A stretch of 64,000 nucleotides of DNA from Halorhabdus utahensis DSM 12940 (GCF_000023945.1 NC_013158.1:186001-250000); one strand, 5' to 3'; counted from the first letter of the stretch, positions 4,396-10,644 are shown. The notes: generated by a model from the sequence alone, not told the origin. Program-made: numbers and translations.

Positions 4396-4839
4396 ATGAG
4401 CCAGGATCGGGTCGAGATACGGGACATCCGGCCCGCCGACGAGAGACGCCTCCGGTCGATTCAGCGAGCGGTCCTCGACCACCCCTCGCCACAGCTGCTG
4501 ACAGCCGCTGCAAGCGGCCTCGGTATCGGGCTCGTCGCCGACGCCGATGAGCGAACCATCGGATACGTCTTCGCGCTCGTCGGGGACGACACAGCCTATG
4601 TGCCGGAGATAGCCGTCGACGCGTCCCGCCATAGGCAGGGGATCGGGAGCGCACTGCTCGAGACGCTGATGCAGCGCGCTGGCGAGGCTGGCGTAGCCGA
4701 GCTCCGGCTGACGGTTCGAGCGGCCGACGAACGTGCCCGCTCGTTTTACCGCGGACACGGTTTCGAGGAACGTGAGCGACTATCGGAATATTACGAGACA
4801 GCGCCGACGACCGGGATCGTCCTTGCCAGATCGGTCTAG
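4396..4839 (+). CDS. GNAT-family N-acetyltransferase (RimI-like)
   Basis: A 147-residue acetyltransferase. The ATG at 4396, five bases after the DUF92 stop, is preferred because the domain begins right after it (VEIRDIRPADE). The acetyl-CoA pyrophosphate loop is RHRQGIGSALLETL near residue 80 and the family C-terminal segment is ARSFYRGHGFEE. The spacing suggests one transcript with the DUF92 gene. The acceptor is unknown; the layout resembles RimI-type N-terminal protein acetyltransferases and small-molecule GNATs equally well. Confidence 0.85.
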   Translation: MSQDRVEIRDIRPADERRLRSIQRAVLDHPSPQLLTAAASGLGIGLVADADERTIGYVFALVGDDTAYVPEIAVDASRHRQGIGSALLETLMQRAGEAGVAELRLTVRAADERARSFYRGHGFEERERLSEYYETAPTTGIVLARSV

Positions 4840-6449
4840 GCAGCTCCCGGGACCGTGACGCGGACCGAGGTAGGCTGTTTGACGAGGTCACCACGCTCGG
4901 TGGCGACGATCCGGGAGATCCCACGCTGTGCGGCGACATCGAGTAGCCGTTGGGTCACGGGGCCGTCGATGACCACCGTTCCGGGGACGGGATCGGCGTC
5001 ACGGATCGTCTCGAAGGCTTCCTCGACGGGGGCTTCCGAAAGGGTCGCCAGGGAGTCATCCAGCAATCGCACCGCACCGGCAGACTCGCCGATGACGGTC
5101 TGGACGTGATCGTCGAGCGTCGCCGACGTGCTGATCGATTCCTCGCCGTCGTCCTCTGCGTCGTCCGGTCCGGATCGACTCACTGGACTGTCATCTCCGG
5201 CAGTTTCGGACGGCTCGTCCGCTCCGTCGTCAGCTCCTGATACCTGATCGGCCACATCGCCGTTGGCAGGTACCGGGACAGACTCCCCGCCTTCGGTCGT
5301 GATCTCGGCTGTCGAAACGGTGGCACTGGCCCCGTCCCCGTCAGCCACAACGGCGTCGTCATCCGATGGCTCGTTTTCCCCCTCGGTAGCGGCTGTGTCG
5401 GTCGCTCCCTCGCCAGCCACTGCGTTGGCCCCGTCTTCGCCACCGACCGCGTCGGTCTCCGCTTCAGCATCAGTCGCGTCGGCTTCGTCCTCGCCAGCCA
5501 CTGTCGACCCATCGTCGGTGGCTGACGCCGATGGTGAATCGTCGAGGCCGTCGCCGGGGTCACCATTGGCTGGCACCGAATCCACGGCTTCACTATCCGT
5601 CGTTTCCCCGTCCGGACCGGGCGCGATATCGCTCGGCGAGATCTCGCCGTCGGCGATCGAGTCGTACGGGACTTTCTCCCGAAGCGCGTCGGTCACGTCC
5701 GTCCGTGAGAGGTCTTCGACCGCCCGGCCGGCCGGGGCAAAGGCGACGTAATCGACGCTGCCGACCTGGGCGAGTTCTTTCAGGATCAGATCCCCCCCGC
5801 GGTCGCCGTCGAGAAATGTCGTCACCGTGCGATCGTGGGTGAGGTCGGCGATCGCATCCGGAACGTTCGTCCCCTCGACGCCGACAGCGTTCTTGATCCC
5901 GTACTGCAACAGCGTCAACACGTCCGACCGCCCCTCGACGACGATGATCGCATCGCCGTCGGCGACTCTCGGACCTGCAGGATACCCCTTGTACTCGGTG
6001 ATGCGCTCGACGCGGGCGCGGCGACGAACCTCCTCGACGAGTTCGTGACTCGACATCACTTCCTCGTCGAAGCGGGCGAGCAATTCCTCGGCACGGTCGA
6101 CGATCTCGCGCCGCTTCGCGGTTCTGACGTCTTCGAGTTGGGTAATTTCGAGCGTTGCCCGACAGGGGCCGACCCGATCGATCGCTTCGAGGGAGGCTGC
6201 CAGAATCGCGGTCTGGACCCGGTCGAGTCCGCTCGCGATGGTCACCTCGCCGGTCGAGCGGCCGCCCTCGGCGTCGATCGTGACGTCGATGCGGCCGACT
6301 TTCGAGGACTCCTGTAAGGTCCGGAGGTCGAGTTCGTCGCCGAGCAGGCCTTCGGTCTGGCCGAATATGGCGCCGACGACGTCACTCCGTTCGACCACCC
6401 CGTTGGCTTCGATCTGTGCGTGAATGAGATATTTCGCTGAATCTTGCAT
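4836..6449 (-). CDS. dnaG: Archaeal DnaG-type primase / exosome-associated protein
   Basis: A 537-residue protein from the ATG at 6449 (MQDSAKYLIHAQIEANG, the conserved archaeal DnaG N-terminus). The TOPRIM domain spans about residues 167-245, with the catalytic Glu in VVEGRSDVLTLL and the DxD in FLDGDRGGD. In archaea DnaG makes short RNA primers in vitro and is also a stable exosome subunit. Residues about 268-444 are a long Ala/Asp/Glu/Thr/Ser-rich low-complexity linker, unusually extended, followed by the normal C-terminal domain (from LDDHVQTVIGESAG). The 3' end overlaps the convergent GNAT gene by four bases. Confidence 0.93.
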   Translation of the reverse strand: MQDSAKYLIHAQIEANGVVERSDVVGAIFGQTEGLLGDELDLRTLQESSKVGRIDVTIDAEGGRSTGEVTIASGLDRVQTAILAASLEAIDRVGPCRATLEITQLEDVRTAKRREIVDRAEELLARFDEEVMSSHELVEEVRRRARVERITEYKGYPAGPRVADGDAIIVVEGRSDVLTLLQYGIKNAVGVEGTNVPDAIADLTHDRTVTTFLDGDRGGDLILKELAQVGSVDYVAFAPAGRAVEDLSRTDVTDALREKVPYDSIADGEISPSDIAPGPDGETTDSEAVDSVPANGDPGDGLDDSPSASATDDGSTVAGEDEADATDAEAETDAVGGEDGANAVAGEGATDTAATEGENEPSDDDAVVADGDGASATVSTAEITTEGGESVPVPANGDVADQVSGADDGADEPSETAGDDSPVSRSGPDDAEDDGEESISTSATLDDHVQTVIGESAGAVRLLDDSLATLSEAPVEEAFETIRDADPVPGTVVIDGPVTQRLLDVAAQRGISRIVATERGDLVKQPTSVRVTVPGAA

Positions 6450-6473: not shown

Positions 6474-6631
6474 GTGATGTGATTGCCATGACCGAATCCA
6501 TGGACGAAACAACGTACGTGACGAGCCAGCAAATGCCTGTCGGGAGAGAGACAGACGCCCCGCAGGGGGTCAGCAACGTTTGATTAGGCTAGCCTGCATC
6601 GTTTTACGTCAGGGGGACCTGTTCTGGTAAC

Positions 6632-7399
6632 ATGAACGAAGACCTGATCGCGACGGCGATCGACGAACTCGAGGACGTCTTTTACATATTCACGCCCGAA
6701 GGCGAATTCGTCGCCTGGAACGAGCAGTTGCCGGCGGTCTCCGGATACACTGACGACGAACTGGACGAGATGGAACCGACGGCACTGTTCTCCGGTGACG
6801 GGAGCGAGGCCGTCGCCGACGCGATCGAGACCGTGATCAAGAACCGGCGTCGAACGGCCGTTCAGGCCAACCTCGAAACGAAAAGCGGGACGGAGATCCC
6901 CTACGAACTCTCGGTATCGCCGTTGATCGAGGACGACGAACTCCGCGTGATCGTGGGTATCGGCAGGGACATTACCGATCGCCTGGAGAACGAACGCCGG
7001 CTCCAGCGGATGGCCGAGGAGATCCGTAACCTCTCGATGCCGGTCGTCGAGATCTGGGACGGCGTCATTCTGACCACGGTCGTCGGCTCGCTCGATACGG
7101 CGAAAGCCGAGCGGTTGACCGAGGAACTCCTCGATCGGATCGTCGAGGCCGAAGCGTCTGTCGCGCTGATCGACATCACCGGCGTGGCGGCGATCGATAC
7201 GGCGACGGCCCAGCATCTCATCGACACGATCAACGCCGTGAATCTGCTCGGTGCCCGCGTCGTCATCACTGGCATCAGTCCGGACATCGCCCAGACCCTC
7301 GTACAGCTCGGCGTCGAACTCGATGACGTCGAGACGCGCTCGTCACTGATGGATGGCCTCCAGGTCGCACTCTCCTGGCAAGGGGTGACGTTCGAGTGA
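6632..7399 (+). CDS. rsbR: Stressosome scaffold/sensor, PAS-STAS (RsbR-like)
   Basis: A 255-residue protein with an N-terminal PAS domain (residues about 5-118, YIFTPEGEFVAWNEQL to GIGRDITDRLENERR), a short coiled linker, and a C-terminal STAS domain (135-250). In Bacillus RsbR, RsbT phosphorylates two STAS threonines; both have counterparts here, Thr190 in VAAIDTATAQ and Thr222 in SPDIAQTLVQLG. In bacteria RsbR and RsbS assemble the large stressosome shell with RsbR N-domains as sensory turrets; here a PAS domain replaces the globin. It overlaps rsbS by four bases (GTGA). Bacterial-type module in an archaeon. Confidence 0.88.
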   Translation: MNEDLIATAIDELEDVFYIFTPEGEFVAWNEQLPAVSGYTDDELDEMEPTALFSGDGSEAVADAIETVIKNRRRTAVQANLETKSGTEIPYELSVSPLIEDDELRVIVGIGRDITDRLENERRLQRMAEEIRNLSMPVVEIWDGVILTTVVGSLDTAKAERLTEELLDRIVEAEASVALIDITGVAAIDTATAQHLIDTINAVNLLGARVVITGISPDIAQTLVQLGVELDDVETRSSLMDGLQVALSWQGVTFE

Positions 7400-7776
7400 C
7401 GGCGGCCGATCCCGCGATCACCCGAGTGTTCGACGTGCTGGTCGCGAGGTTCCCGAGCCAGCCCACCGACCAGGCGGTCGACGAGCTCAGGGCGGCGGTG
7501 TTGGCGGAGATAGAGGAGTCGAACCCGAACGGCGTCGTCCTCGATATCTCGGGCGTGAATACGCTGGATTCGTTTTTCGCCCGCGTCATCGCAGAGACGG
7601 CGGCGATGGTCGAGCTGATGGGCGGGACAGCCATCGTCGCCGGGATGCGGCCGAGCGTCGCGATCACCGCCGCCGAACTCGGCTTCGACCTCGGGGGCGT
7701 CGAAACGGCGCGGGATACCGATCACGCCCTCTCGCAGTTAGGGGTCCGTGCCGCCGAGGAGACACGCAATGAATGA
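7396..7776 (+). CDS. rsbS: Stressosome core STAS protein (RsbS-like)
   Basis: A 126-residue single STAS domain with a GTG start overlapping the rsbR stop. The phosphorylatable serine of RsbS is kept: Ser59 in GVVLDISGVNTLDSFFARVI, the same residue number as in B. subtilis. The following GTAIVAGMRPSVAITAAELG is the characteristic second STAS segment. Phosphorylation of RsbS by RsbT releases RsbT from the stressosome in bacteria. Translation is coupled to rsbT by an eight-base overlap. Confidence 0.9.
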   Translation: MTAADPAITRVFDVLVARFPSQPTDQAVDELRAAVLAEIEESNPNGVVLDISGVNTLDSFFARVIAETAAMVELMGGTAIVAGMRPSVAITAAELGFDLGGVETARDTDHALSQLGVRAAEETRNE

Positions 7777-8203
7777 GACGGGCTCGCTCCGGGAGGACGT
7801 CACAGTCAGACGGTCGGGCGAGCTACAGCTCGGTGCCGAGGACCACGTCCTGCGAGCACGCCAGCGGGCACGGGAGGTCGCCGAGAGCGAAGGCTTTTCG
7901 ATCACTGACGTCACCCGGATCGTCACGGCCGTCTCCGAACTCGCCCGGAACATCCATCTCTATGCCGGTGATGGCACGATGAGCTGGCGCGTTCTCGAGG
8001 ACGGCGATCGAGACGGTCTGGAGATCACGTTCGACGACGACGGTCCCGGAATCGACGACGTCGAGGGCGTCCTGGCCGCCACGCACTCGACATCCGACGG
8101 AATGGGCCGCGGAATCCAGGGAACGCGGAAGTTGATGGACGAGTTCTGGCTGTCTTCGAGTACCGATACCGGGACGACCGTCACCATCAGGAAGTGGCAG
8201 TGA
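7769..8203 (+). CDS. rsbT: Stressosome switch kinase (RsbT-like, GHKL ATPase)
   Basis: A 144-residue serine/threonine kinase of the anti-sigma-factor GHKL class; ATG at 7769 inside the rsbS end. N-box SELARNIHLYA (Asn61), G1 box DDDGPGI (about 89-95) and G2 box GMGRGIQGTRKLMD (111-124) are all intact, so it should bind ATP. In bacteria RsbT phosphorylates RsbR and RsbS, then leaves to activate the RsbU phosphatase. No RsbU, RsbV or sigma-B gene is near, and archaea have no sigma factor, so the downstream partner must differ. Confidence 0.9.
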   Translation: MNETGSLREDVTVRRSGELQLGAEDHVLRARQRAREVAESEGFSITDVTRIVTAVSELARNIHLYAGDGTMSWRVLEDGDRDGLEITFDDDGPGIDDVEGVLAATHSTSDGMGRGIQGTRKLMDEFWLSSSTDTGTTVTIRKWQ

Positions 8204-9273
8204 TGCCCGGAGACTTCGAGGTTCGACGGGAGAAACGACAGCGAGTCGAGACTGATGACGATGTCGTCCTCGCACGGTCGCTGGCCGAGGACATCGCCGG
8301 CCAGGCCGGGTTCGATACCGACGTCGGCGCAGAGATCGGTATCGTCGCCACGGAACTCGCCGAAAACGTCCGGAAACACGCCGAACACGGCGAACTCACC
8401 GTTTCTCACATGGCCGATGACGCGGACAGCGGGATCAGGATCGAGTCCCGGGACGCCGGGAGCGGAATCGAGGACATCGAGAATGCGTTCACGGACGGCG
8501 TCTCGACTGCCGGCAGCCTCGGCCGCGGGCTCGGCGCAGTCAACCGTCTGATGGATCGGGTCTCCGTCATGTCGCCCGGAACGCCCGGCAACGGCACCCA
8601 CGTCACGGCCGATCGATGGGTCCGGTCGTTCGCCGAACCGACGGTCGATCCGTTGCTCACCTTCGGGGCGGCATCCCGGCCGAAAGTGTTGGGCACCGAA
8701 AACGGCGATAGCTTCGTGCTCACTCGGTGGAACGACACCACTCTCGTCGGCGTGATCGACGGACTCGGACACGGGCCGCCGGCCCACACGGCTGCGATGG
8801 CCGCGAAGGGCTACGTCAACACGCACGCCGATCGCCCGCTCGGGGAGATCTTCGCGGGGACCGAACGTGCCTGCAAGGCCACTCGGGGCGTCGTGATGGC
8901 ACTCGCGCGCTTCGACTGGACAGCCCAAACAGTCACGTTCGGGGCCGTCGGGAACATCACGCACAAAACTGACGGCATCGATCTGCGTGTGGTGGATCGA
9001 CGTGGGGTTCTCGGCAGCAACGGCCCGGATCCCGTCGTGGCGAGCGCCGATCTGGTCCCGGAGACGCGGCTGGTACTCGCCTCGGACGGCGTTGACTCCC
9101 GGTGGCAACTGAGTGACTACGAGCGGATCCTCGCCGACGCCCCGACCGTGGCTGCCCGGCGGCTGCTCGCCGAGTTGGGCAAAGACCACGACGATGCGAC
9201 AGTACTCGTTGGACTGCCGGCAGATGGACCCGGCTCCGAGACCGAAACCGATCAACGGGAGAACCACCAGTGA
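8203..9273 (+). CDS. RsbT/RsbW-like ATPase fused to RsbX-like PP2C phosphatase
   Basis: Start taken as ATG 8203, which shares one base with the rsbT stop; GTG 8194 is an alternative. The 356 residues contain a GHKL ATPase (1-145; N-box TELAENVRKHAEH, G1 RDAGSGIED, G2 GSLGRGLGAVNRLMD) followed by a PP2C/SpoIIE-type phosphatase (150-345; metal-binding GVIDGLGHGPPAH, LASDGVDSR, KDHDDATVLVG). RsbX in bacteria resets the stressosome by dephosphorylating RsbR and RsbS. Kinase and phosphatase on one chain would put phosphorylation and reset in a single protein. The two halves are separate proteins in the classic system. Confidence 0.88.
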   Translation: MPGDFEVRREKRQRVETDDDVVLARSLAEDIAGQAGFDTDVGAEIGIVATELAENVRKHAEHGELTVSHMADDADSGIRIESRDAGSGIEDIENAFTDGVSTAGSLGRGLGAVNRLMDRVSVMSPGTPGNGTHVTADRWVRSFAEPTVDPLLTFGAASRPKVLGTENGDSFVLTRWNDTTLVGVIDGLGHGPPAHTAAMAAKGYVNTHADRPLGEIFAGTERACKATRGVVMALARFDWTAQTVTFGAVGNITHKTDGIDLRVVDRRGVLGSNGPDPVVASADLVPETRLVLASDGVDSRWQLSDYERILADAPTVAARRLLAELGKDHDDATVLVGLPADGPGSETETDQRENHQ

Positions 9274-10550
9274 CAGCGGACATACTCACGCAGCTCCGGC
9301 AACTCGCAGTTGATCGCGACGACGACCTCGGGGACCTGCTCTCGACCGCGGCCGATCGGATCGCGACCCAGGACGATCGGATCGCGGAGCTCCAGACGGA
9401 ACTCGAAGAGACCAACGAGGGCATGGTCGCGCTGACGCTCGAACTCCAGGAAGCCGAACAGCGCTACCGATCGCTGTTCGAGAACGCCGTCGAGGGGATC
9501 TACAAGACGACGCCGGACGGTCGACGGTACGTCCTCGCCAACAAGTCGATGGCCGAGATCCTCGGCTACGACGCTCCGGAAGCCCTCCAGGAGGCGGTTA
9601 CTGACATCGGCGAGGACGTGTTCCTTGATCCAGACCGCTACGAAACCTATCAATCCAGACTCAGAGATGCGGGGGCGATCGAGAACTTCGAGTATCAGGT
9701 ACAGCGCGCCGACGGCGAGGTCAGATGGGTCAGAGACAACGCCCGGACCCTCTCCGATGACGGCTCACCGTCCGGGTTTCGTGGCGGTGTCATCGACGTA
9801 ACCGAACTCCGGACCTACGAGACGCGCCTGGAGCGGACCAACGAGGAACTGGAGGCACTCAATCGGCTCGTCCGTCACGACATCAGCAACGACGTGCAGG
9901 TGATCCAGGCGTTCGCCGAACGGCTCGATGAACGACTGGTCGAGGACGGCGAGCGTGAAGCCATCGAGAAGATCCTCTCGGCGACCGACCACATCACGGA
10001 CCTCACCGAGAACGCCCGCGAATACATCGAGGCGGTGACCGGCGATGACGATCCCGAACTCGAACCTGTTGACCTCTGTCAGGTACTCGCCTACGAACTC
10101 GATCGCCAACGTGATGCCAATCCTCACGCACGTTTCGAGCTCCTGACTGACCTGCCCGCCGTTGCCGTCCGGGCAAACGAGATGCTTGGGTCGATCTTCC
10201 GGAACCTGCTCGGCAACGCCGTCGAACACAACGACAGTGATCCAGTGGTCGAGATCGTGTGTATCGTCCACGCCGACAGTGTCGAGATACACGTCGCGGA
10301 CGACGGCCCCGGAATCCCGCCGGATCGTCGGGACGCGATCTTCGGAAAGGGCGAGCAGTCTCTCGACAGTGAAGGGACGGGGATCGGTCTCTACCTGGTC
10401 GACCAGCTGGTCTCGCTGTACGACGGAGAGATCCACGTCGAGGACCGGGCGGAGTGGTCACCCGTCGATCCCCAGACCGGTGAGCCCGTCGAAACCACCG
10501 TCGAAGCGGACTCCGGATCCGTGTTCGTGCTTCGACTTGCCCGCGCCTGA
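9270..10550 (+). CDS. PAS sensor histidine kinase at the end of the stressosome operon
   Basis: A 426-residue soluble kinase, GTG start overlapping the previous stop by four bases. An N-terminal coiled coil (20-60) leads into a PAS/PAC unit (65-190; RYRSLFENAVEGIYKTTPDG to GGVIDVTELRTYE), then HisKA (LNRLVRHDISNDVQVI, phospho-accepting His) and HATPase_c (N-box FRNLLGNAVEHN, G1 VADDGPGI, G2 EGTGIGLYLVDQL). No membrane segment, so it senses a cytoplasmic signal or the stressosome itself. No response regulator gene is adjacent. Bacterial RsbRSTX loci are also often followed by two-component genes. Confidence 0.9.
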   Translation: MTADILTQLRQLAVDRDDDLGDLLSTAADRIATQDDRIAELQTELEETNEGMVALTLELQEAEQRYRSLFENAVEGIYKTTPDGRRYVLANKSMAEILGYDAPEALQEAVTDIGEDVFLDPDRYETYQSRLRDAGAIENFEYQVQRADGEVRWVRDNARTLSDDGSPSGFRGGVIDVTELRTYETRLERTNEELEALNRLVRHDISNDVQVIQAFAERLDERLVEDGEREAIEKILSATDHITDLTENAREYIEAVTGDDDPELEPVDLCQVLAYELDRQRDANPHARFELLTDLPAVAVRANEMLGSIFRNLLGNAVEHNDSDPVVEIVCIVHADSVEIHVADDGPGIPPDRRDAIFGKGEQSLDSEGTGIGLYLVDQLVSLYDGEIHVEDRAEWSPVDPQTGEPVETTVEADSGSVFVLRLARA

Positions 10551-10644
10551 AGGGCCCTCAGTCGAATGGACGCCCCCATCGAGAGGACAAACTGGTGGAT
10601 TGTGGCAACTGTTATACCACGCCCTCCTCAATCCACGCCTATAG

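Follow-up and report, generated by a model that had tools for sequence, protein, structure and literature searches.

The haloarchaeon Halorhabdus utahensis DSM 12940 carries an operon of five overlapping genes which probably acts as a self-contained stressosome-type switch, with the histidine kinase encoded by the last gene as its output. The operon lies in the window, which here means the whole analysed stretch of 64,000 nucleotides (GCF_000023945.1, NC_013158.1:186001-250000); coordinates given without a locus name refer to it.

How a stressosome passes on its signal where sigma B is lacking is still a question for the field. Stressosome genes in archaea have been mentioned in passing (PMC9237108, PMC8942246, PMC10014275), so that their mere presence is not new; on that count the operon is an uncommon example of something already described. 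What seems to be new is the output, a kinase which begins with a coiled-coil element. No published account of a haloarchaeal module or of this element was found in the open-access literature, and none of the papers found proposes an output for archaeal stressosomes. Downstream signalling proteins with an RsbU_N domain are known in Proteobacteria (PMC9237108, PMC12143880). The variant architecture together with the effector element makes the operon more than a list entry and turns it into a testable object: with the conserved element, the question of the output can be put directly to assays of binding and of kinase activity, and the operon can be tested because H. utahensis is culturable. In addition, the element brings the modules of archaea and bacteria under a single proposed mechanism, and candidate outputs can now be named, a DNA-binding protein among them.

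The features of the operon are as follows.

about 6558-10592, no strand assigned: inserted cassette between dnaG and a symporter gene (congener alignment)
6632-7399, plus strand: RsbR with PAS and STAS domains (Pfam PAS_9 3e-11, STAS 3e-15; PDB stressosome RsbR E=1.8e-25)
7199-7201, plus strand: RsbR phospho-acceptor Thr190 (alignment column)
7295-7297, plus strand: RsbR phospho-acceptor Thr222 (alignment column)
7396-7776, plus strand: RsbS, a lone STAS domain (PDB Listeria RsbS E=3.6e-18)
7570-7572, plus strand: RsbS phospho-acceptor Ser59 (alignment column)
7769-8203, plus strand: RsbT, a GHKL switch kinase (Pfam HATPase_c_2 2e-12)
8203-9273, plus strand: TX, an RsbT/W-like ATPase joined to an RsbX-like PPM phosphatase (Pfam, AF2, Foldseek)
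about 8257-8604, plus strand: RsbT/W-like ATPase domain of TX (HATPase_c_2)
about 8734-9210, plus strand: RsbX-like PPM phosphatase domain of TX (SpoIIE)
9270-10550, plus strand: PAS histidine kinase, the proposed output (Pfam HATPase_c 4.5e-19)
9375-9488, plus strand: coiled-coil element ELxxTNxGxxALxxE, kinase residues 36-73 (profile, heptad, AF2 helix)
9876-9878, plus strand: kinase His203, invariant among related kinases

All five reading frames were present where a sequence-only reading of the window had placed them, with the same overlaps of exactly 4, 8, 1, and 4 nucleotides between successive genes, and Pfam domains were detected on all five proteins. The similarity of RsbR, RsbS, and TX to solved stressosome proteins is well outside what chance would give. 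The description of the module as complete was likewise borne out: judged by homology, catalytic residues, and operon structure, the set of RsbR, RsbS, RsbT, and RsbX is complete. The acceptor residues predicted by that reading, Thr190 and Thr222 in RsbR and Ser59 in RsbS, were found at their positions and fall in the alignment columns of those residues which are phosphorylated in the bacterial proteins. In this alignment of 71 loci and bacterial structures the Ser59 column is serine in 72 of 73 sequences, the Thr190 column threonine in 66 and serine in 6 of 72, and the Thr222 column threonine in 72/72. The catalytic glutamate, arginine, and asparagine of RsbT and the glycines of its G-box are invariant across the aligned loci. 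Identity of the two STAS proteins to bacterial ones is about a third. They stand apart from SpoIIAA/RsbV and SulP, and at E<=0.01 the PDB matches of RsbS were stressosome STAS chains only.

The translated RsbR contains no cysteine, and its sole histidine sits in the STAS domain. A LOV photoreceptor of the YtvA type is therefore excluded (the YtvA model score is 112 against a cut-off of 250), and a heme-histidine sensor is unlikely.

Gene four had been read as a fusion of an RsbT/W-like protein to RsbX, and this is what the domain searches returned, with HATPase_c_2 at residues 19-134 and SpoIIE at residues 178-336. Residues E51, N55, D84, D169, D186, D295, D330, and D331 of TX are invariant. 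The protein matches the Moorella stressosome phosphatase 3zt9 with E=1e-8, and its AlphaFold model has a pLDDT of 89.6. When this model was searched with Foldseek, the phosphatase domain was closest to 3zt9 (TMt 0.89), followed by RsbX 3w40, while the ATPase domain resembled SpoIIAB. Modules of the Methanolobus type (L076 5270-6679; L077, L079, L082, L083) encode, between RsbT and RsbX, one more RsbT-like ATPase which stands alone, an arrangement that looks like TX divided over two genes.

With the RsbRST systems of Bacillus and Listeria, which lead to sigma B, the H. utahensis operon shares the RsbR/RsbS STAS pair, the RsbT kinase, the serine and threonine acceptors, and an RsbX-type phosphatase. 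In contrast to them it lacks RsbU, RsbV, RsbW, and a sigma factor, its RsbX is fused to an ATPase, its RsbR has a PAS domain where theirs has a non-heme globin sensor domain, and it includes a histidine kinase. Gram-negative rsbRSTX modules of the Vibrio type have two-component or c-di-GMP outputs (PMC9237108). They resemble the present operon in the order R-S-T-X and in the signalling protein encoded next, which in some species is a histidine kinase (PMC9237108), but differ in that X is not fused to a HATPase and in that the output has RsbU_N or no recognised domain rather than the coiled coil with its TNxG motif.

A cassette acquired as one unit

Comparison with congeners and a tree show that the cassette came in by horizontal transfer, in one piece. 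The dnaG gene and the SSF symporter gene adjoin each other in all six sampled congeners, in none of which RsbS was found. In three congeners the DNA between the two genes can be aligned with the window as far as about 6557, and the alignment resumes at about 10593, from which it follows that about 4.0 kb with just five genes were inserted; the neighbouring of dnaG and symporter in 6/6 congeners implies that they arrived together. The base composition of the cassette is close to that of the host. Haloarchaeal modules also occur on plasmids, namely in Halobaculum halophilum and Halanaeroarchaeum sp. HSR-CO. The neighbouring dnaG (4836-6449, minus strand) contains, behind the Toprim domain, a long acidic insert of low complexity, and its congener matches are shorter or split at this insert.

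RsbS with an adjacent RsbR was detected in 3/146 genomes of the family, 10/392 of the order, and 28/393 of the phylum, the latter being about 7%, among the matches listed. A further scan added three Halonotius species, Methanosarcina, Methanolobus, a Helarchaeota MAG, and many bacteria. The sequence-only reading, which had such modules described mainly from bacteria, needs two corrections: the archaeal genes were already in print, and modules of this kind occur in about 7% of the phylum genomes sampled; and, as set out below, the five-gene order is known from bacteria too.

In a tree of concatenated RsbR-STAS, RsbS, and RsbT the 14 haloarchaeal loci form a single clade (100/99), which joins a set of bacteria and the Helarchaeota MAG (100/100). 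Most methanogen-side modules are placed elsewhere, apart from the haloarchaeal clade, and a single clade for all Halobacteriota modules was rejected by the AU test (p=3e-5). Since the bacterial rows had been chosen by their similarity to haloarchaeal RsbS, the tree does not point to one particular donor. The identical five-gene order is also found in bacteria: R-S-T-TX-kinase operons of Sphingomonas, Deinococcus, Variovorax, and Xanthomonas agree with that of H. utahensis in genes, order, and kinase element. They differ in that the kinase often has an extra N-terminal RsbT-like ATPase or that a response regulator follows, and the haloarchaeal proteins form a clade separate from theirs.

The coiled-coil element of the kinase

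Residues His203, Asn316, and Asp344 of the kinase are invariant in related kinases. N-terminal to its PAS domain lies an element which forms a 38-residue heptad helix and for which no covering Pfam model was found in the proteins scanned; in the AlphaFold model residues 19-71 are a single helix running into the PAS domain. Eight positions of the element (E9, L10, T13, N14, G16, A19, L20, and E23) are invariant in 18/18 aligned examples; a few looser copies depart from these residues. The element is conserved as strongly as the catalytic residues of the kinase. The invariant threonine occupies a heptad core position. RsbU_N (PF08673) was absent from the kinase both by Pfam and by a local RsbU_N profile.

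The element was detected in 9/393 genomes of the phylum, in each at most 2.4 kb downstream of RsbS and on the same strand, and no match outside this operon slot was seen in the 393 genomes. On this ground a chance match or a generic signalling helix was rejected. When the profile was run against all reading frames of the fetched loci, the best match outside the slot reached only E=0.24; for bacteria the exclusivity covers these loci and a plasmid search. The genome of H. utahensis showed no second candidate bearing the element.

Across the 71 loci the element follows the form of RsbX. Of loci with TX, 37 have the element, none has RsbU_N, and 9 have neither, two of these being on contigs which end there. 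Among loci with stand-alone RsbX, 3 have the element, 14 RsbU_N, and 4 neither; on the methanogen side the protein downstream of such an RsbX is mostly an RsbU_N protein. Where RsbX was not found, the counts are 0, 2, and 2. Over the 393 phylum genomes Fisher's test of element against TX genomes gave p=6e-15 with genomes counted as independent, and a tree-aware test had just three independent contrasts; the association may reflect shared descent.

On a contig of the MAG assigned to Helarchaeota (Asgard) an R-S-T-TX module occurs together with two element-bearing proteins (L120 7001-11273). In Methylococcales-like proteins the element is repeated in tandem, twice or three times (L128 2692-5118; L124-L127, L129, L139).

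Proposed mechanism and alternatives

At rest an assembly of the STAS domains of RsbR and RsbS would hold RsbT. Upon a signal sensed by the PAS domain of RsbR, RsbT would phosphorylate RsbR at Thr190 and Thr222 and RsbS at Ser59, and then depart, a step proposed because of the conserved residues and the bacterial precedent. Once free, RsbT would bind the N-terminal coiled-coil element of the kinase, possibly together with the ATPase of TX, and change the kinase activity. The phosphoryl group would pass to a response regulator encoded elsewhere, no such gene being found within the cassette, and the phosphatase domain of TX would strip the phosphates and reset the switch. The rest of the H. utahensis genome contains no other STAS or SpoIIE domain, so that no RsbU/RsbV relay was found, and a hidden sigma-type cascade of RsbU, RsbV, and RsbW was rejected.

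The step at the kinase is proposed by analogy with RsbU, which RsbT activates via the N-terminal domain and a coiled-coil linker (PMC12143880). Both proteins have an N-terminal helix before a dimeric effector, a heptad core with a polar residue in it, and a gene beside rsbT; the linker of RsbU has an unfavourable core glutamine, Gln94 (PMC12143880), and the element an invariant threonine, likewise in the heptad core. The kinase differs from RsbU in lacking the four-helix RsbU_N domain and in having a distinct, non-Pfam element. Our inference is that RsbT, once released, or else TX, switches the kinase through the coiled-coil linker.

Which of the two reads the element is hinted at from both sides. 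The RsbT positions which we take to correspond to R19 and R23 in the B. subtilis protein are arginine in 40/40 element-bearing loci. In B. subtilis these two arginines bind RsbU (PMC12143880), and their retention in all element loci hints at RsbT as the reader. A somewhat unlikely alternative is that the TX ATPase reads the element, TX moving to and fro between kinase and STAS proteins and leaving to RsbT only the phosphorylation of RsbR and RsbS. Its appeal lies in the company of the element with TX in 37 loci, and of RsbU_N with stand-alone RsbX, and in three loci within the haloarchaeal clade (L068-L070) where the TX ATPase is missing and the element degenerate, which hints at TX. Besides the RsbT arginines, the possible shared descent of TX and element speaks against it, as do the modules of Halonotius (L066 6757-9054, L067 4225-6234, L112), which keep R-S-T-TX but precede a kinase without the element; in two Halonotius genomes searched whole the element was not found.

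The same Halonotius kinases, and the fact that the downstream proteins differ among species, would suit a kinase that is an unrelated co-transferred sensor, with another protein as the true output of the module. This is improbable, as the kinase gene travelled with the cassette and shares 4 nt with the TX gene, and as the element is exclusive to the operon slot, with no other bearer in the genome. The guess of the sequence-only reading that the kinase is the output has been strengthened by this analysis. An unlikely scenario concerns the assembly instead: RsbR, RsbS, and RsbT might interact and signal as a smaller partner switch, no icosahedral shell of megadalton size being formed in the salty cytoplasm. 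Haloarchaeal protein surfaces are acidic, which together with an identity of only about a third to bacterial STAS proteins counts in its favour, but the operon has STAS proteins of both classes as well as the linker of RsbR, and these are nearest to shell-forming proteins. That the operon is a non-functional relic of horizontal transfer is very improbable; it is absent from 6/6 congeners sampled, yet its five frames are intact, every catalytic and acceptor residue is kept, and its composition is near that of the host. The reading preferred here is the self-contained switch acting through its own kinase; against it count the Halonotius modules, in which the element was not found, the three contrasts to which the tree-aware test of TX and element comes down, and the lack of a response regulator gene in the cassette.

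Effectors joined to the element

The effectors known or proposed to work with RsbT through RsbU_N are phosphatases, diguanylate cyclases, and kinases (PMC12143880). The element, too, is joined to several effectors in the operon slot. A histidine kinase is found in haloarchaea, Proteobacteria, Deinococcus, and other bacteria, and a SpoIIE phosphatase in Streptomyces and Saccharopolyspora; sigF is near the element-SpoIIE gene in one of two Streptomyces plasmids examined, that of Streptomyces microflavus, where R-S-T-TX is followed by the element-bearing phosphatase (L169 1028-7956). In a Firmicutes MAG the slot holds a GAF-GGDEF-HD protein with a looser copy of the element. In one haloarchaeal clade (L071-L073; L071 6598-9063) the gene after TX encodes the element followed by a GAF-GAF-BAT-HTH_10 DNA-binding protein, and its ATG start and the stop of TX lie within a shared four bases. 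This Bat-type protein is a possible direct transcription-factor output of the module.

The odds are about even that the TNxG coiled coil is an unrecognised portable docking linker which couples stressosome switch kinases to many effectors in bacteria and archaea, in haloarchaea to a histidine kinase or, in L071-L073, directly to a Bat-type HTH_10 DNA-binding protein, with no sigma factor.

In methanogen-side TX modules (L087 6396-7451, L089 6654-7097, L091 6638-7072) the next protein has 144-149 amino acids and carries the element; these small proteins have a kinase-like helical stretch without the ATPase domain, and in L087 a DUF7504/KaiC-like protein follows.
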